From Sandaracinus amylolyticus (GTDB lineage Bacteria; Myxococcota_A; Polyangia; Polyangiales; Sandaracinaceae), in the NCBI RefSeq assembly GCF_000737325.1, contig NZ_CP011125.1, forward strand, positions 6,448,001-6,512,000: a stretch of DNA of 64,000 nt, given 5' to 3'. The position numbers were made by a program, and so were the translations under genes. Positions 1,025 to 11,572 of this stretch are shown here, one piece after another (the stretch's first letter is position 1; the number at the start of each line of letters is the position of its first letter). Under the pieces are notes generated by a model, which did not search any database, was not told where the DNA came from, and saw nothing but the letters and a program-made list of their open reading frames with translations.

Positions 1025-1187
1025 GGCTGACGGCGATTCTGCCCGAAGGTGCGGCGCACCCGCCGACGATCGTGCGACGCTCGGCAGGCGCGGTCGCCGG
1101 TGAGGTGCGCTTGCGATCGCGCGCGGATCGCCCGAGAGAGGGCTCGACGCGCACGATTTCCGACGTCAGCCTGCGCGCCCTCTCGTC

Positions 1188-1916
1188 ATGCGCCGAATCC
1201 CCGCCGAGCTGCGAACCGTCGAGCTGACCGATGCGAGGATGCTCTCGCCCACGGTGCGCGAGCTGGTGTTCCGCACCACCGACGGACGCGCGTTCGACTT
1301 CCTCGCCGGACAGTGGGTCAAGCTGCACCTCGGGGGCGGGATCGATCGCGACTACTCGATCGCGAGCGCGCCCGACGCGAGCGCGCCCGATCGCTTCGCG
1401 CTCGCGGTGACGCTCGTCGAGGGCGGGCCGGGCTCGGAGCGCCTGCACGCGATGGAGCTCGGGACGCGCGTCGACGCGCGCGGGCCGAACGGGCTCTTCG
1501 TGCGCGAGGACGCGGAGCGCGACGCGCCGGCGCTCTACGTGGGCACCGGCACCGGGCTCGCGCCGCTGCGCGCGATGCTGCAGGAAGAGCTGCGCCGCGA
1601 GGACGGACCGCCGCAGGTGCTGCTCTTCGGCTCGCGCACCGAGGAGGACATCCTGTGGCGCGAGGAGCTCGAGGGCTGGGCCGCGCGCCACCCGCGCTTC
1701 CGCCTCGAGCTGACGCTGTCGCGCGCCGACACGCGCATCTGGAAGGGGCGCTGCGGCTGGGTGCAGCACCACCTCCACGAGCTGTTGCCCACGATGCCGG
1801 GCGCGCCGCACGTGTACGTCTGCGGGCTGTCGAAGATGGTGAGCGAGGTGCGCCGCACGCTGAAGGACGAGCTGCGCCTGGATCGCCGCCACGTGCACTC
1901 GGAACGCTACGACTGA
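1188..1916 (+). CDS. FAD/NAD(P)-binding oxidoreductase (ferredoxin-NADP reductase-like)
   Basis: The 242-aa protein has the two-domain ferredoxin-NADP reductase fold. A flavin-binding barrel carries RDYSIAS (Arg54, Tyr56, Ser57), the RxYS signature that contacts FAD. A nucleotide-binding domain carries GTGTGLAPLR near residue 118, and a late YVCGLSKM segment matches the conserved Cys-Gly of the NAD(P) site. No 2Fe-2S cysteine cluster is visible, so it should pass electrons from NAD(P)H to a separate partner. ATG at 1188 gives an N-terminus typical of single-chain reductases. It lies divergent to a di-iron hydroxylase gene, making it a candidate reductase for that enzyme, though this is context only. 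Confidence 0.88.
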   Translation: MRRIPAELRTVELTDARMLSPTVRELVFRTTDGRAFDFLAGQWVKLHLGGGIDRDYSIASAPDASAPDRFALAVTLVEGGPGSERLHAMELGTRVDARGPNGLFVREDAERDAPALYVGTGTGLAPLRAMLQEELRREDGPPQVLLFGSRTEEDILWREELEGWAARHPRFRLELTLSRADTRIWKGRCGWVQHHLHELLPTMPGAPHVYVCGLSKMVSEVRRTLKDELRLDRRHVHSERYD

Positions 1917-1999
1917 GGCGGTCTGCAACCCGTCGAGCTCCGGGCTGCCTACATGTCGTTTCCTTGATCCCACGCTCGCCCTCTGGCACGCCCGGCGGC

Positions 2000-3958
2000 A
2001 TGATGGCCGACGCGATGCCCCTGCCCCTCGAGCTCCTCGACGGAGCCCGCCCTGCGCTGCGTCGCGCTGCCCTCCTCACGCTCCTGCCGCTCGCCGCTGC
2101 GCTGGTGTTCACGGGGTGCCCAGGCGGCACGGGACAGCGCCCGATCGGCACGACGCCCGCGCTGACCACCGACGATCCCGACGCCGAGGCCGACTTGCGC
2201 GAGGCCGAGCGCGCCTCGGAGCAAGGCCGCTCGAGCGAGGCCGCGGAGCGCTACCGCGAGTTCCTCGCCGAGCACCCCGAGGATCGGCTGGTCCCGCTCG
2301 CCGAGCTGGGCCTGGGGCGCGTGCTGCTCGCGAGCGGCGACGCGCAGGGCTCGCTCGAGCGCTTCGAGCGCGCCGCGACGAGCGACGACGAGGTGGTCGC
2401 GGAGCGCGCGCGCTTCCATCGCGGTGTCGCGCTGCATCTGCTCGGGCGCAGCGCCGAGGCGATCGACGTGCTCACGCCGCTGCGCGGTCGGCTGGTCGAT
2501 CCCGAGAGCACGTCGCTCCTGCTGCGCACGCTCGCGGCGGCGTCGATGCAGACGGGCGATCCGATCACCGCGCTCGGCGCGCTCGACGATCTCGTCCGCG
2601 CGAACACCTCCGAGACCGACACGAACGAGGCGCGCACGCGCATCGAGGCCATCGTGACGAACGAGCTGCCCGCCGAGCTCGTCCCGCTCGCCTACGACAC
2701 GCTCGCGCGCGACGGCACGTCGTGGCCCCAGGTCGCGCTGCGCGCGATCCGCGCGGCGTACGACGCGGGCGACGTCGAGCGGGTGCGCGCGATCGCGAGC
2801 GAGCTGCGCTCGCAGGGCGTGGAGCTCTCGGAGGAGCTCGCGGCGCTCGTGCTGCGCGCCGACCGCATCGCGACGGCAGATCCGCGGGTGATCGGCGCGA
2901 TCCTTCCGCTCTCGGGGCGCGGCCGCGAGATCGGCCAGCGCGCGCTGCGCGGACTGATGCTCGCGGCAGGAACGCCCGCCGAGGGCCCGCCGCCGCCCGA
3001 CGCGCCGCAGCTCGTGCTGCGCGACGACGCGGGCGATCCCGAGCGCGCGGCGCGCGCGGTCGAGGAGCTGGTGTCGACGCACCGTGCGATCGCGATCGTG
3101 GGCCCGCTCGATGGTCCTTCGGCGGTCGCCGCGGCGCGTCGCGCACAGCAGCTCGGGGTGCCGCTGATCACGCTCTCGCCCGCGGGCGACGTGACGAGCG
3201 CGGGCCCGATGGCGTTCCGCTTGTTCCCGAGCGCCGAGGGCGAGCTGCGCGCGCTGGTCCGCGCGGCGCGAGCGCGCGGCGCGGCGCGGTTCGCGGCGCT
3301 GCACCCGGAGTCGCCGTACGGCGTGGCGATGCGCGATGCGCTGGCGCGCGCGGTCGCGGCCGAGGGCGGCGAGATGGCGACGAGCGCGGCCTACGCGCCG
3401 ACCGCGACGAGCTTCGGGCCGCAGGTGCAGCAGATCGCGCAGGGCGGCGCGGACGCGGTGCTCGTCGCGGACAGCGGCGCGCGCCTCGCGCTGATCGCGC
3501 CCGCGCTCGCGGCGGGGGGGCTGTGGAGCACGATGCCGGGCGCGGCGCCTCCGCCGCGCGGGCGGCGCATCGCGCTGATGGTGCCGAGCGTCGGGTTCGA
3601 TCCGCGCCTGCCGCGCACCGCGGGTCGTTACCTGCAGGGCGCGCTCTTCAGCGTGCCGTTCCACGCGCCGACGGCGGAGGGCGAGGCGCGCTCGTTCACC
3701 GACGGCTTCATGGCGCGCTTCGCGACCGAGCCCGACGCGTTCGCGGCGTACGCGTACGACGCGTTCGGGCTCGTGCGGCGCGCCGTGGCGTCGGGCGCGA
3801 CGAGCCGCGCCGACGTCGCGTCGTGGCTCGCCGCGGGACGCGAGGCGCCGACGGCCGGCGCGAGCGGCGGGCTCGGCGCGGCGCGCGAGGCGAGGCAGGC
3901 GACGCGCTTGCTCGAGCTGCGCGGAGAGCTCTTCGTCTCGCCCGACGCGCCGCGCTGA
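2000..3958 (+). CDS. Lipoprotein with N-terminal TPR-like repeats and a periplasmic-binding (LpoA-like) domain
   Basis: A tandem ATG ATG begins at 2000. After a basic start, a hydrophobic stretch ends in VFTGC, a lipobox, so the mature protein should be an outer- or inner-membrane-anchored lipoprotein of about 620 aa. Residues about 55-290 are alpha-helical with TPR character (for example AAERYREFLAEHPEDRLVPL). From about residue 295 the segment IGAILPLSGRGREIGQRAL opens a type-1 periplasmic-binding domain (Leu/Ile/Val-binding family) that runs to the C-terminus. This TPR plus binding-domain order is that of LpoA-like activators of penicillin-binding proteins. A role in peptidoglycan synthesis is therefore possible, but a ligand-binding lipoprotein of another kind cannot be excluded. 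The stop lies 6 bp from the stop of the convergent gene at 3965. Confidence 0.82.
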   Translation: MMADAMPLPLELLDGARPALRRAALLTLLPLAAALVFTGCPGGTGQRPIGTTPALTTDDPDAEADLREAERASEQGRSSEAAERYREFLAEHPEDRLVPLAELGLGRVLLASGDAQGSLERFERAATSDDEVVAERARFHRGVALHLLGRSAEAIDVLTPLRGRLVDPESTSLLLRTLAAASMQTGDPITALGALDDLVRANTSETDTNEARTRIEAIVTNELPAELVPLAYDTLARDGTSWPQVALRAIRAAYDAGDVERVRAIASELRSQGVELSEELAALVLRADRIATADPRVIGAILPLSGRGREIGQRALRGLMLAAGTPAEGPPPPDAPQLVLRDDAGDPERAARAVEELVSTHRAIAIVGPLDGPSAVAAARRAQQLGVPLITLSPAGDVTSAGPMAFRLFPSAEGELRALVRAARARGAARFAALHPESPYGVAMRDALARAVAAEGGEMATSAAYAPTATSFGPQVQQIAQGGADAVLVADSGARLALIAPALAAGGLWSTMPGAAPPPRGRRIALMVPSVGFDPRLPRTAGRYLQGALFSVPFHAPTAEGEARSFTDGFMARFATEPDAFAAYAYDAFGLVRRAVASGATSRADVASWLAAGREAPTAGASGGLGAAREARQATRLLELRGELFVSPDAPR

Positions 3959-4523: not shown

Positions 4524-5240
4524 TCAATCGCGCGGCGCGAGCACGCGATGCGCGAGCGCGCCGAAGCGCTGCAGCGCGACCGGCGGGATCTCGTGGCCGC
4601 CGCGGAACGGCACGAAGTCCACGTCGACGCCCGCGTCCTTCAAACGATCGCGCAAGAGCTCGGCGTTCGGGTACGGAAGGATCGGATCGAACGCGCCGTG
4701 GCTCTGCATCACGGGCAGACCGGCGCGCGCGGCCATCTTCGGCGCCCAGATCGACTGCGCGAGCAGCGTGCCCGAGAAGAGGGCGAGCCCCGCGAGCGGG
4801 CGCGCATCGTGGAGCGCGACGTCGAGCGAGAGCATCGCGCCCTGCGAGAAGCCGCCGAGGATCAGCGAGCTCGGCCGGAGGCGCTCTTCGATCGCGTCGA
4901 GCATCGAGACGATCTTCGCGCGCGCCTCTTCGATGCCCTCGGGCACCTCGTTCGCGAGATCGCGCGCGCGCCCTTCGCGCATCATCCGATCGAGCGCGAT
5001 CATGTCGATCATCCACCACGCGCGGCCCATCCCGTAGACGCTCGAGAGATCGAGCGGCGCTTCGGGGAACACGAAGCGCGTGCCGCGCGGCACGTCGGCG
5101 ACGCGCCAGAGCCCGACGAGATCCTCGCCCGGCGCGCCGAACCCGTGCAGGAGCACCACCACCGGTCCGTCGCCACCGCCCTGGCGATCGGTGCCGCCGA
5201 CGATGCGCGCGTCGAGATCTCCGAGCCGCTCGATCTTCAT
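4524..5240 (-). CDS. Alpha/beta hydrolase, phospholipase/carboxylesterase (YpfH-like) family
   Basis: The 238-aa protein has the compact serine-esterase fold of the phospholipase/carboxylesterase family. LLHGFGAPGED forms the oxyanion loop region. GGFSQGA contains the nucleophile Ser132, Asp185 lies in HGAFDPILP and His216 in RGGHEIPP, giving a complete triad. No signal peptide is present, so it should act in the cytoplasm on short acyl esters; the substrate is unknown. The ATG overlaps the stop of the upstream membrane gene (ATGA), so the two are translationally coupled and very likely co-transcribed with the Crp-family regulator further upstream. Confidence 0.9.
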   Translation of the reverse strand: MKIERLGDLDARIVGGTDRQGGGDGPVVVLLHGFGAPGEDLVGLWRVADVPRGTRFVFPEAPLDLSSVYGMGRAWWMIDMIALDRMMREGRARDLANEVPEGIEEARAKIVSMLDAIEERLRPSSLILGGFSQGAMLSLDVALHDARPLAGLALFSGTLLAQSIWAPKMAARAGLPVMQSHGAFDPILPYPNAELLRDRLKDAGVDVDFVPFRGGHEIPPVALQRFGALAHRVLAPRD

Positions 5241-6037
5241 CGGGACAGGGCTAGCACGCTGATCACGAGCACGGCGAGGACGCCGATCCCGATCGCGGCG
5301 ACGCGCCGCTCGTGCGGCGGAGGCAAGCGCGTCTCGGGGTGCGCGACGAGGATCGCCGCGCCGAGGAACGGCAACGCCGGCAGCGCGCGCTCCAGCGCGA
5401 TCACGCTGGCGGCGGTCACCGCGAACGCGATCCCGAGCGCGACGATGGTGCGACGCACGCCGAGCGCGAAGCGCCGCGACACCGTGAGGTACAGCGCGAC
5501 GAACACCACGTCGCCGATGCCGAGCAGCGGCTCGATCGCGCGCGTGCCGAGCATCGGGAACGGGAGCGCGAGCACCGAGAGCATCGGCGCCGACTCGAGC
5601 GCAGCAGCGCTCGGCCCGGCGGGGCTGAGCACGCTCCACACGTCGGCGAGCGACGACACCACGGCGACGATCACGACGTGCCCCGCGTGCTGGATGCGCG
5701 CGCCGACCACGCCGCCCGACACCGCGCCGCCCGTGAGCAGCGCGACGATCACCAGCGCGCTCGCGGCGATGCCGCTCGCGCGCGTCGCGGCCGACCCCGC
5801 GAGCACTGCGATGACCGGGACCCAGAGCGCGAGCGCGCGCGGCGGCAGCGGCCCGATCACCGCGCCGGCCGCGATCGTCATCGCCGACACCGCCGCGAAC
5901 CCGAGCCCGAACGCGGCGAACGCGGCCACCGCGCTGCGGCTCGGATCGACCGGCACCAGCGGCGCGACGAGCGCGGCGAGCACGAACGCGACGACGCAGG
6001 CCCCGACGACGGCCGCGAACGCCCGCGCGCCGATCAC
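5237..6037 (-). CDS. Polytopic membrane protein with presenilin/SPP-like GxGD motif (candidate intramembrane aspartyl protease)
   Basis: This 266-aa protein is almost entirely hydrophobic, with about eight or nine predicted membrane helices. Three short motifs stand out in the right order and spacing for the presenilin/signal peptide peptidase (A22) family. Asp132 lies in SSLADVWSV, matching the place of the first catalytic Asp (YD). GIGD at 173-176 matches the GxGD that holds the second Asp. PALP at 220-223 matches the PAL motif. The spacing is 44 residues between the Asps and 44 from the second Asp to PAL; family members have about 45-60. The first motif has Ala instead of the usual Tyr before Asp. 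Function is therefore inferred from motifs only; an unrelated transporter-like protein remains possible. It sits in a tight unit, 6 bp after the Crp-like gene and overlapping the esterase gene. Confidence 0.6.
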   Translation of the reverse strand: MIGARAFAAVVGACVVAFVLAALVAPLVPVDPSRSAVAAFAAFGLGFAAVSAMTIAAGAVIGPLPPRALALWVPVIAVLAGSAATRASGIAASALVIVALLTGGAVSGGVVGARIQHAGHVVIVAVVSSLADVWSVLSPAGPSAAALESAPMLSVLALPFPMLGTRAIEPLLGIGDVVFVALYLTVSRRFALGVRRTIVALGIAFAVTAASVIALERALPALPFLGAAILVAHPETRLPPPHERRVAAIGIGVLAVLVISVLALSR

Positions 6038-6043
6038 CGCTCG

Positions 6044-6757
6044 TTACGAGCCCTTCTTGCGCCCGTACGCGATCGACTCGAGCTTCGAGATGTCGAGCAC
6101 CTCGATCAGATCGGGCGTGACCTTCAGCGCGCCCTCGCGCTCGAGCAGCGCCAGGCCGCGCGAGATCTCCTCGCGCACCGTCCCGAGCCGCCCCGCGACC
6201 GTCTCGGTCGTCAGATCGCGCACCAGGTGCCGCGAGTCCTCGCCGCGCAGCTCGCGCGCCGCGGCGAGCGTGCAGAGGAACGACGCGAGGCGCGCCGGCA
6301 CCGTGCGCAGCGACAGATCGCTCACCAGGCGCAGCGTCTTGTCCGCGCGGTGAGCGCGCAGATCGAGCATCACACGCAGGATCGCGGGGCGCTTCTCGCC
6401 GAGCGCGGCGATCGTCTCGTTCGAGACGAGGAGCGCGCTGCCCGCGCGCATCGCGATCGCGCTCGCGGGGTACACCCCGCCGTCGAACCGCACGCCCTCG
6501 ATGATCGGCCGTCCCGGGCGCGCGAGGTAGATGATCTGCTCGCGTCCGTCACGGCCGCTCTTCGTGAGCTTCACCTCGCCGGTGCGCACCACGAAGAGCC
6601 CCTCGGCGGCCTGTCCCTCGCTGAACAGCGGCGCGGCGCGCGCCACCTTCCGTACCTCGGCGGCCTCGGCGAGGAGATGCAGATCGGGAGCAGGGAGCTG
6701 ACCGAGGATGGGCACATCCCGGAAGAGCTCGTCGGCCGAACGAGGTGCGATCGCCAT
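6044..6757 (-). CDS. Crp/Fnr-family transcriptional regulator
   Basis: The 237-aa protein has an N-terminal cyclic-nucleotide-binding-like beta barrel (residues about 15-130, with PLFSEGQAAEGLFVVRTGEV). A dimerisation helix follows, then a C-terminal winged helix-turn-helix (DLTTETVAGRLGTVREEISR) that contacts DNA. The barrel lacks the four N-terminal cysteines of Fnr, and the cAMP-binding signature is not obvious (GRPIIEGVRFDGG is in that place), so the effector is unknown. ATG at 6757 is chosen; a GTG three codons upstream is an alternative. It heads the leftward unit with the GxGD membrane protein and the esterase, and is divergent from the AAA+ regulator at 6863. The 105-bp intergenic region is a likely site of autoregulation. 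Confidence 0.9.
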   Translation of the reverse strand: MAIAPRSADELFRDVPILGQLPAPDLHLLAEAAEVRKVARAAPLFSEGQAAEGLFVVRTGEVKLTKSGRDGREQIIYLARPGRPIIEGVRFDGGVYPASAIAMRAGSALLVSNETIAALGEKRPAILRVMLDLRAHRADKTLRLVSDLSLRTVPARLASFLCTLAAARELRGEDSRHLVRDLTTETVAGRLGTVREEISRGLALLEREGALKVTPDLIEVLDISKLESIAYGRKKGS

Positions 6758-6862: not shown

Positions 6863-8503
6863 ATGGCGGCGGAGCGCACCGCAGCGGAGGGAGCATCCGG
6901 CGCGGTGGCACGCGCCTTCGTGGCGGTGCGGTGTCGCGATCGCAGCTGGATCGTCGACGTGCCGCTCGGGGAGTCGATGCTCGCGGGTCCACGCGGCGAG
7001 GCGCTCGTCGCGGTCGACGGGATCGCGGAGCCGCTCGGATCGCAAGGCCGCATCGCGTGGAACGGGCGGACGCTCTCGCTGCGCGAGACCTCGCGCGCGC
7101 CCGAGATCTTCCTGGGCGGCAAGCGCATGGAGAGCCCGGTCGAGCTCAAGCCGGGCGACGAGCTCACGATCGGCCCGGCTCACCTGGTGGTCGGGATCAG
7201 CTCCCCCGATCTGCCAGCGACGCGACGCGCGCTCACCCACGCGGAGTTCAAGGAGCGCCTCGCCGAGGAGATGGCGCGCGCCGCGCGCGGCGGTCGTCCG
7301 ACCGCGCTGGTCATGGCGCTCGCGCGCAGCGGCGAGGGCGGCGTGCTCCTCGGGGCGGCGCTCGATCGCTTCCGCGCGGGCGACGTCGTCGCGAGCTACG
7401 CCCACGACGAGACCGAGATCCTCCTGCCCGACACCACGCGCGAGCGCGCGCTCGCGGTCGTCGAGCGCGTGCTGCGCGGCGTCGGGCTCGAGGGCGTGAT
7501 CGTCGCGTGCGCGGTCGCGCCGAAGGACGCGGATCACCCCGAGCGCCTGATCCGCGCGGCGCGCCTCGCCCTTCGGATGCAGCTCGAGGAGCGAGGTCGA
7601 GTGCCGGTGTCGCGCCCGCCGGAGGACGATCCGGTGCTCGACGACGCCGCGAGCCGACGCGCCGCCGAGCGGCTCGAGGTCCGCGCCCACGCCCGCGGCC
7701 CGATCCTGCTGACCGGCGAGCCGAGCGCCGGCAAGGTCGCGTTCGCGCGCCGCATGCACCGCATCGCGGGAGGCGGCCCGCTGGTGGTGCTCTCGTGTGC
7801 GCGCACGGCCGACCCGCGCGCGCTGGAGCACGCGCTCGACGAGGCCGCGGAGGCGCGCGGCGGCACGCTGATCCTCGACGAAGTCGGCGAGCTGACACCC
7901 GACGCCCAGGCGCGCTGGCTCCCGGTGCTGCGCGCGCTCGAGCCCGAGGCGCGCCTCGTCGTGACGAGCCATCGCGATCTGCGCGCGCTCGCCGAGCGTG
8001 GTGCGTTCCACGCGGAGCTCGCGGCGTATCTCTTCGCGCGCGACCCGATCGCGATCCCGCCGCTGCGGCAGCGCCCCGACGACGTGGTCCCGCTCGCGAC
8101 GCGCTTCGCGATCGAGGCCGGCGCGCGCGTCCCGGTGCGCTTCTCGGCGGGCGCGCTCGCGCGCCTGCGCAGCTATCCGTGGCCGGGCAACGTGCTCGAG
8201 CTGCGCAACGCGATGGAGCGCGCGGTGCGGCTCGCGGGCGGCGGCGAGATCCTCGCAGAGCACCTCCCGGGCGACAGCCTCGCGGCGGCGCAGGGCGACG
8301 GTCGGCTCCGCGAGCACGTCGACTCGGTGGAGCGCGACGCGATCGTGAAGGCGCTCGCCGAGGCGAACCACAACCAGACCCACGCCGCGAAGCGCCTCGG
8401 CCTCTCGCGCCGCGCGCTGATCTACAAGATGGAGAAGTACGGCCTGAAGCCGCCCCCGGGCAGAACCGCCGCGGCCCTCGCGGATGATGTCGCCGGCCGG
8501 TAG
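6863..8503 (+). CDS. FHA-like / degenerate GGDEF / AAA+ (sigma-54-type without GAFTGA) / Fis-HTH regulator
   Basis: The 546-aa protein has four parts. Residues about 15-115 resemble an FHA domain (VELKPGDELTIGPAHLVVG). Residues about 120-245 resemble a GGDEF domain whose signature has decayed (SYAHDETEILLPDT where RYGGDEF is expected). Residues about 260-450 form an AAA+ domain of the sigma-54 activator type, with Walker A GEPSAGK, Walker B GGTLILDEVGEL and the sensor segment YPWPGNVLELRNAMERA. The C-terminus is a Fis-type HTH (NHNQTHAAKRLGLSRRALIY). The stretch between Walker A and Walker B is short and lacks the ELFGHEKGAFTGA loop that touches sigma-54. It may therefore bind DNA without activating sigma-54 promoters in the usual way. 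It could act as a repressor or a sigma-70 regulator. Confidence 0.82.
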   Translation: MAAERTAAEGASGAVARAFVAVRCRDRSWIVDVPLGESMLAGPRGEALVAVDGIAEPLGSQGRIAWNGRTLSLRETSRAPEIFLGGKRMESPVELKPGDELTIGPAHLVVGISSPDLPATRRALTHAEFKERLAEEMARAARGGRPTALVMALARSGEGGVLLGAALDRFRAGDVVASYAHDETEILLPDTTRERALAVVERVLRGVGLEGVIVACAVAPKDADHPERLIRAARLALRMQLEERGRVPVSRPPEDDPVLDDAASRRAAERLEVRAHARGPILLTGEPSAGKVAFARRMHRIAGGGPLVVLSCARTADPRALEHALDEAAEARGGTLILDEVGELTPDAQARWLPVLRALEPEARLVVTSHRDLRALAERGAFHAELAAYLFARDPIAIPPLRQRPDDVVPLATRFAIEAGARVPVRFSAGALARLRSYPWPGNVLELRNAMERAVRLAGGGEILAEHLPGDSLAAAQGDGRLREHVDSVERDAIVKALAEANHNQTHAAKRLGLSRRALIYKMEKYGLKPPPGRTAAALADDVAGR

Positions 8504-8672
8504 CGGCCATACAGGTCGAGCCACGTTGTGAGGAGAGGTCGGACCGTCGCGCCGTCATCGGACGCACCGGGACATTTCTCGTCACAGCTTGAATCCAGGG
8601 TGACGTAGGGTCGTCCTGGAGCACACCGGCAAGCTCGTGAGACGCTTCGAAGCCGGGGAGGACTTCCAGAAC

Positions 8673-9626
8673 ATGAAAAGAATCGCCCTCGCGACGGTCT
8701 GCCTCGCCACCATGCTCCTGGCCTCGGGATGCAAGGTCGTCGTGACGGGGTCGTCGACGTACGAGACCTGCGTCACCGACGGAGACTGCAACGACGCGTT
8801 CGACCGCTGCGTCTCGGTGACCAACGGCTCGGCGACCGACGCCCAGTGCACATCGACGTGCGACTTCGACAGCGACTGCCCCGGCAGCGGTCACTGCGTC
8901 TCCTTCGATGGCGTGAACTCGTTCTGCTACCAGACCTGCGTCACCGACGCGATCTGCGAGTCCGGCTGGTCGTGCAACGACCTCAGCGACGGCAGCGCGG
9001 TGTGCCTCCCGGGCGGCACGGCGCCGGTCGGCGAGCCGACCTACGACGCGTGCTCGAGCACCAGCCAGTGCGCCGACGGCAACGACCAGTGCGTGCCGAT
9101 CACGAACGGCAGCGACACCGGCTCGCAGTGCACGCGTGAGTGCGCGGACGACCTCGACTGCCCCGGCAGCGGCCACTGCGTCTCGTTCGATGGCTCGAAC
9201 TTCTTCTGTTACGAGCTCTGCACGACGAACGCGAGCTGCGAGAGCAACTGGGGCTGCACCGACCTCAGCGACGGCAGCGCGGTCTGTCTCCCGGGTGACG
9301 GCACCCCGCCGCCCCCGCCCGGCATCCCGCCGTACAACGAGTGCCCCTTCGGCGCGAACCCCGATCAGTGCTCGGAGGTCTCGCAGGGCTGCTTCCAGAT
9401 CGCGGTCGACGGCACGACGGCGGCCGGCGTCTGCACGAGCGAGTGCACCTCGTCGGCGCAGTGCCCGGTGACGCCTTCGGGCCTCCAGGGCACCTGCGTC
9501 GAGTACTTCGGCTCGCCGCGCATCTGCTTCGAGTCGTGCATCGACGACAACGACTGCCTCGAGGGCTTCAACTGCAAGCCGATCGCGGCGGGCGAGTCGC
9601 AGCGCATCTGTCTGCCGACGCCCTGA
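8673..9626 (+). CDS. Secreted Cys-rich lipoprotein with three repeats
   Basis: An ATG at 8673 follows the strong ribosome-binding site GGGGAGGA at 8655-8662, ten bases upstream, so it is preferred over the in-frame GTG at 8637. The 317-aa product begins MKRIALATVCLATMLLASGC, a clear lipoprotein signal with lipobox LASGC. The mature part has three repeats of about 90 residues with regularly placed cysteines. The first two are nearly identical in CPGSGHCVSFDG and CLPGG/CLPGD segments and are joined by a Pro-rich linker (TPPPPPGIPP) to a more divergent third. All cysteines probably form disulfides outside the cytoplasm. No enzymatic motif is seen. Such proteins are abundant on myxobacterial surfaces; function unknown. 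Confidence 0.85.
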   Translation: MKRIALATVCLATMLLASGCKVVVTGSSTYETCVTDGDCNDAFDRCVSVTNGSATDAQCTSTCDFDSDCPGSGHCVSFDGVNSFCYQTCVTDAICESGWSCNDLSDGSAVCLPGGTAPVGEPTYDACSSTSQCADGNDQCVPITNGSDTGSQCTRECADDLDCPGSGHCVSFDGSNFFCYELCTTNASCESNWGCTDLSDGSAVCLPGDGTPPPPPGIPPYNECPFGANPDQCSEVSQGCFQIAVDGTTAAGVCTSECTSSAQCPVTPSGLQGTCVEYFGSPRICFESCIDDNDCLEGFNCKPIAAGESQRICLPTP

Positions 9627-9655
9627 CGTCGATCCGACACGTGTGATCCGCGCGA

Positions 9656-9692
9656 GGGCGGCGGGGCGAGAGCCTCGCCGCCCTTCGCGTTT
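9656..9692 (+). terminator. Strong GC hairpin with short T-rich tail after the Cys-rich lipoprotein gene
   Basis: GGGCGGCGGGGC, loop GAGA, then GCCTCGCCGCCC can form a stem of about 12 bp with one imperfect pair, followed by TTCGCGTTT. It starts 30 bp after the stop at 9626. The tail has few consecutive Ts, so intrinsic termination is likely but may be inefficient. Confidence 0.6.
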
Positions 9693-9949
9693 CCGTCGGT
9701 GCGTCGTGGCCCCCGCCGCGCGGATGGCACCTCGGGCCTCGAAGACTGCGCGCCCCGCCTCGGAAGATCGCGGCCCCACCCTCGCGCAGCGTGCCCCCCG
9801 GCGATCGCCGATGAGCCCCCCGCCGTCGGCGGGATGATCCCCCGCCTCCACGACCTCGCCCCCCGCATCCGATCCTCTCGGTCCCTCGGGGACCACGATC
9901 GATCGAGGCGGGGCAGCGAACGTTCGAGCGAGGGCCGCGATCGACGCCC
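9693..9949. other. Intergenic region between two converging genes
   Basis: No convincing gene is seen. A perfect 6-bp hairpin GGTCCC-TCG-GGGACC lies at 9880-9894. It could help to end transcription of the leftward protease gene, but it has no T-run. The rest is GC-rich with no other clear structure. Confidence 0.5.

Positions 9950-11572
<1,623 letters not shown>

Follow-up and report, generated by a model that had tools for sequence, protein, structure and literature searches.

Does a myxobacterium encode an intramembrane protease of the presenilin type? Presenilin and signal peptide peptidase (SPP) are proteases that cleave their substrates within the membrane, and the human enzymes make the amyloid peptides of Alzheimer's disease. 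The question is raised by a membrane protein encoded in a 64,000-nucleotide stretch of Sandaracinus amylolyticus DNA, analysed here as the window, from a host genome of 10,327,335 bases in one contig. Presenilin-type proteases have been placed in eukaryotes and archaea, apart from the GxGD prepilin peptidases of prokaryotes (PMC2947513). An earlier note, made from the letters of the window, had read D132, GIGD at residues 173-176 and PALP at residues 220-223 in the open reading frame at 5237-6037, with spacings of 44 and 44 residues, and had proposed a bacterial relative of presenilin and SPP. The motifs and both spacings are present in the sequence as described. The features used below are as follows.

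5237-6037, minus strand: GxGD/PAL presenilin-SPP-like membrane protein of 266 aa, with predicted catalytic Asp132 and Asp176 and PAL at residues 220-223
5630-5647, minus strand: Asp132 segment ADVWSV, residues 131-136, the putative counterpart of the presenilin TM6 Asp (coordinates via residue numbering)
5510-5521, minus strand: GIGD motif, residues 173-176, with the predicted second catalytic Asp (coordinates via residue numbering)
5369-5380, minus strand: PALP motif, residues 220-223 (coordinates via residue numbering)
6044-6757, minus strand: Crp/Fnr-family regulator immediately upstream (Pfam cNMP_binding PF00027 and HTH_Crp_2 PF13545)
4527-5240, minus strand: phospholipase/carboxylesterase-type alpha/beta hydrolase, here called the esterase (Pfam Abhydrolase_2 PF02230)
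6863-8503, plus strand: divergent sigma-54-type activator (AAA+ and Fis HTH, with FHA below threshold)

The reading frame at 5237-6037, which starts with GTG, is a real gene, as judged by its homologues, its GC3 of 0.97 and the codon positions at which it differs from its nearest orthologue (29, 20 and 65 changes at positions 1, 2 and 3, mostly third). In searches of Myxococcota genomes, 30 of 56 near relatives had a homologue, always as a single copy; homologues were also found in 41 of the 289 genomes of the class and in 28 of 367 across the phylum, the last two with one match per genome. A scan of the genome collection with the GxGD protein matched three close relatives only, and tblastn of plasmids with the same protein gave no match. 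On a tree of 43 members, eight changes suffice to fit the nine host families, which is the minimum possible, so that inheritance of the gene has been mainly vertical. The Myxococcota proteins thus form a single-copy, mostly vertically inherited family, for which no Pfam or NCBIfam model exists. Its most divergent member, a homologue of 274 aa (L035, from genome G056), sits on an end branch of 3.55 and has GVTD in place of GxGD; it may be a sign that the family extends further among bacteria than the classes sampled here.

The family is divergent: the alignment (44-45 rows, one of which duplicates the window protein) has a median pairwise identity of 31% and a minimum of 17%. Seven residues (G108, D132, S135, G173, D176, P220 and L222) do not vary in any row that covers them. 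D132, within a hydrophobic segment, is kept in 44/44 rows, as are G173 and D176; G175 is kept in 39/44, and the motif reads GxAD or GxTD in the other five. P220 and L222 are found in 45/45 rows and A221 in 43/45. The distance from D132 to D176 varies between 44 and 49 residues across the alignment, and every sequence has the same spacing of 44 between D176 and P220. Of the invariant residues, D132 and D176 alone are charged, and both lie in hydrophobic segments. Judged from this alignment, the motifs are not due to chance; they are kept, and in order, where most else has changed, the pattern that would be expected of an active site. One feature that the earlier note had listed for A22 proteases is absent. 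The canonical YD motif at the first catalytic Asp lacks its Tyr in all 44 rows, where the preceding residue is A (23), V (18), F (2) or S (1), and for this reason we describe the family as a divergent A22-like clade and not as a canonical member of A22A or A22B.

How closely are these proteins related to known A22 proteases? Searched alone, the window protein gave a sub-threshold match to Peptidase_A22B in Pfam (E 0.079), no match in NCBIfam and nothing useful by phmmer against the Protein Data Bank (PDB). The family as a whole was more telling. Among 28 members compared with Pfam, six touched Presenilin and five Peptidase_A22B, while every other family was touched by at most one; the earlier note had named a confident transporter match as contrary evidence, and no transporter family was matched by more than one member. 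The best member score was that of homologue L036 against Presenilin (E 0.0031, 16.8 bits vs. a cut-off of 34.3), the best PF04258 (Peptidase_A22B) score was 13 bits vs. a cut-off of 23.3, and no member tested reached the curated Pfam cut-off of PF01080 or PF04258. These matches span the region from GxGD to PAL, except in L035, whose Presenilin match covers residues 128-167, N-terminal to the GxGD region.

Profiles built from the family gave a more specific answer. An 18-member profile returned eight matches among PDB sequences, all eight A22 (best E 0.0018), and a 28-member profile searched against 177,635 distinct PDB sequences returned nine, each of them presenilin-1, presenilin-2 or SPPL2A (best E 1.9e-5). 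The PDB sequence set holds many other membrane proteins and so carries its own control; none of them matched the family profile. In the alignments, the family GxGD falls on LGLGD and PALP on PALP, both in register. Those with full-length presenilins add a separate stretch, weak at 2-4 bits, that pairs "D..SV..P.GP" with "YDLVAVLCPKGP", the TM6 Asp region. A hold-out profile made from the distant clade only (six sequences from two other host families) had presenilin-1 as its sole PDB match up to E 10, at E 0.015. The archaeal A22 model PF06550 matched nothing in 222 Myxococcota genomes, and two archaeal controls were positive; the PF01080 profile had no match in 28 genomes, but no control matched either, which makes that negative uninformative. 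The earlier note had proposed a profile search against A22B/DUF1119 families; in the PDB the profile matches are to A22 only, and in Pfam the cut-offs are unreached. Together with the invariant catalytic motifs, these matches support its proposal of a bacterial relative of presenilin and SPP. The gene very probably encodes a single-chain GxGD intramembrane aspartyl protease, a presenilin/SPP homologue (MEROPS A22-like) that belongs to a separate bacterial clade not covered by existing models.

Hydrophobicity and charge bias fit nine membrane helices, with several segments and helix boundaries weak in the hydropathy profile. When the sequences are read with nine helices and the N-terminus inside, the inside loops have an excess of K+R in 42/42 sequences (mean total 11.8 inside vs. 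4.0 outside, over similar loop lengths). In this model Asp132 belongs to helix 5 and Asp176 to helix 6, PAL sits at the turn between helices 7 and 8, and the loop at 138-171 is outside. In presenilin, the catalytic loop is cytosolic. SPP is described with the opposite topology, matching type II rather than type I cleavage (PMC2947513). Taken with the charge bias, these two orientations point to an SPP-like arrangement, with the catalytic loop predicted to lie outside the cytoplasm, and the family would be SPP-like in predicted orientation and presenilin-like in motif neighbourhood. Two AlphaFold models made on a 4-sequence alignment were of low confidence (pLDDT 46.8 and 44.7), and Foldseek with the first of them returned noise only.

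The resemblance to each known system is therefore best given together with its limits. Presenilin (MEROPS A22A, PF01080) shares with the family a D-x-x-x-V-x-x-P-x-G-P-like stretch after the first Asp, LGxGD and (A)LPALP, and provides the best profile matches. The family differs from presenilin in scoring below the PF01080 cut-off, in lacking the YD Tyr and in the loop that connects the catalytic helices, which is much shorter and predicted to lie outside the cytoplasm. The predicted number of helices also differs, being lower by one ahead of the first Asp and higher by one beyond PAL. The SPP/SPPL proteins (A22B, PF04258) are alike in the GxGD and PAL motifs, which align in register to those of SPPL2A, in the predicted orientation of the catalytic core and, by assumption, in being a single chain, but the family lacks their YD Tyr and the long N-terminal part of SPPL2A and falls below the PF04258 cut-off. 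Archaeal PSH/MCMJR1 (PF06550) is likewise prokaryotic and, with motifs as given in PMC2947513, also has PAL and two neighbouring helices towards its C-terminal half that carry an Asp and GxGD; this likeness is one of motif description, whereas PF06550 matches no Myxococcota genome among those searched. The A24 prepilin/preflagellin peptidases are also prokaryotic GxGD-type aspartyl proteases, yet the family has no A24 match (PF01478 and related), has a PAL motif and carries its Asp residues in hydrophobic helices.

Could a different kind of protein account for the same motifs? Ion-coupled transporters commonly carry a conserved Asp embedded in the membrane, and another polytopic membrane protein of this sort might have acquired two Asp and a PAL-like turn by convergence, a view that the low confidence of the AlphaFold models leaves some room for. 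We regard it as unlikely, since three motifs occur in the correct order and register, all PDB profile matches are A22 and transporter families in Pfam are matched by one member at most. Retention of an A22 fold that no longer cuts but acts as a scaffold or chaperone is less likely still: the absent active-site Tyr and the replacement of Gly175 in 5/44 rows would suit it, but few residues of the family are kept as strictly as both Asp and the Pro and Leu of PAL. It is scarcely credible that the protein is a divergent member of the type 4 prepilin peptidases (A24), the GxGD proteases already known from bacteria. A24 enzymes too have a GxGD Asp and occur in prokaryotes, but their Asp residues are described in soluble regions (PMC2947513), whereas both Asp of the family lie in hydrophobic segments; the family has PAL at a fixed spacing, and the families matched best, up to E 1, include none of A24 (28 members in Pfam, 18 in NCBIfam).

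As an A22-type protease, the protein would have nine membrane helices and a cytoplasmic N-terminus. Asp132 (helix 5) and Asp176 (helix 6, in GxGD) would jointly activate water within the membrane, with the PAL turn ahead of helix 8 shaping the active site. The loop that joins the catalytic helices would face the periplasm, an orientation shared with SPP and the reverse of that in presenilin, which would make type II (N-in) segments the likeliest substrates, namely spent signal peptides or membrane anchors at the N-terminus. Like SPP and archaeal PSH, the protein would be expected to work without partner subunits.

We compared the gene neighbourhoods of 21 loci with flanks. Eight of them have a Crp-family gene directly upstream (all seven from the host family of the window that have flanks, and one from another family). 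A divergent sigma-54-type activator occurs in 11 loci, and two, those of the window genome and its nearest relative, have the esterase next to the gene. Downstream genes vary by lineage (UvrD-like helicase, MMPL transporter, MaoC dehydratase, SMC protein), and none of the neighbours at the 21 loci is kept throughout the family. Because neighbours differ by lineage, the substrate is not identifiable from gene context. The earlier note had described one overlapping, Crp-regulated unit of Crp-family regulator, protease and esterase. Both genes do adjoin in the window, and the esterase overlaps, its ATG sharing 4 nt with the stop of the GxGD gene (ATGA), but the stop of the Crp-family gene is separated by 6 nt from the GTG start. 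A gap of this size makes co-transcription with the Crp-family gene likely; that the Crp protein also regulates the GxGD gene is a guess from the adjacency. A conserved Crp-protease-esterase functional module was rejected, given that the esterase is adjacent only here and in the nearest relative.

Several other features of these loci were recorded. In the N-terminal half of the sigma-54-type activator of the window, FHA and GGDEF are matched below threshold, and next to this activator lies an open reading frame (8637-9626, plus strand) for a Cys-rich, lipoprotein-like product with repeated Cys/Asp-rich segments. Just past the divergent activator in L049 is an SspB-like gene (9175-9963, minus strand; PF04386) that is absent from the window, and related open reading frames occur in L041, L044, L046, L047 and L050; in other bacteria, SspB serves as an adaptor of ClpXP. 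In L052, a run of genes with the MMPL transporter and the GxGD homologue includes one for a 954-aa protein (1033-3894, minus strand) with six stretches of Stig1 (PF04885), a family of plant stigma-specific proteins.

What does the protease do in the cell? We slightly favour the clearance of signal peptides or anchors over signalling. The competing view, tentative and with somewhat less than an even chance in our estimate, is that an A22-type protease here serves regulated proteolysis, freeing a membrane-held regulator or degrading an anti-regulator in connection with the Crp-family and sigma-54-type neighbours. The frequency of those neighbours among the loci speaks for it, as do the SspB-like gene past the activator in L049, with its relatives at several other loci, and the patchy occurrence of the gene within the class, which suits an accessory role more than a housekeeping one. 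Against it, no neighbour is kept family-wide, no single-pass membrane regulator was recognised beside the gene, and a divergent gene need not share function.

We found no report in the open literature of presenilin/SPP-type proteins in myxobacteria. Since that search was of open papers, with subscription papers outside its scope, and the genome searches covered one phylum, earlier notice of such proteins in bacteria is possible. A compact, single-copy bacterial clade would be new material for work on structure and mechanism, and a test of which active-site residues matter: if the family is active, the YD Tyr would be dispensable. It would also be a candidate new class of intramembrane protease to seek in bacterial signalling or signal-peptide turnover. 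The chances seem to us evenly balanced that the Myxococcota proteins represent an ancient third branch of the presenilin/SPP group, which would combine presenilin-like motifs with an SPP-like membrane orientation and do without the YD Tyr. If so, bacteria would have a native route to presenilin-type intramembrane proteolysis, and the family would inform the origin of the inverted topologies of presenilin and SPP.
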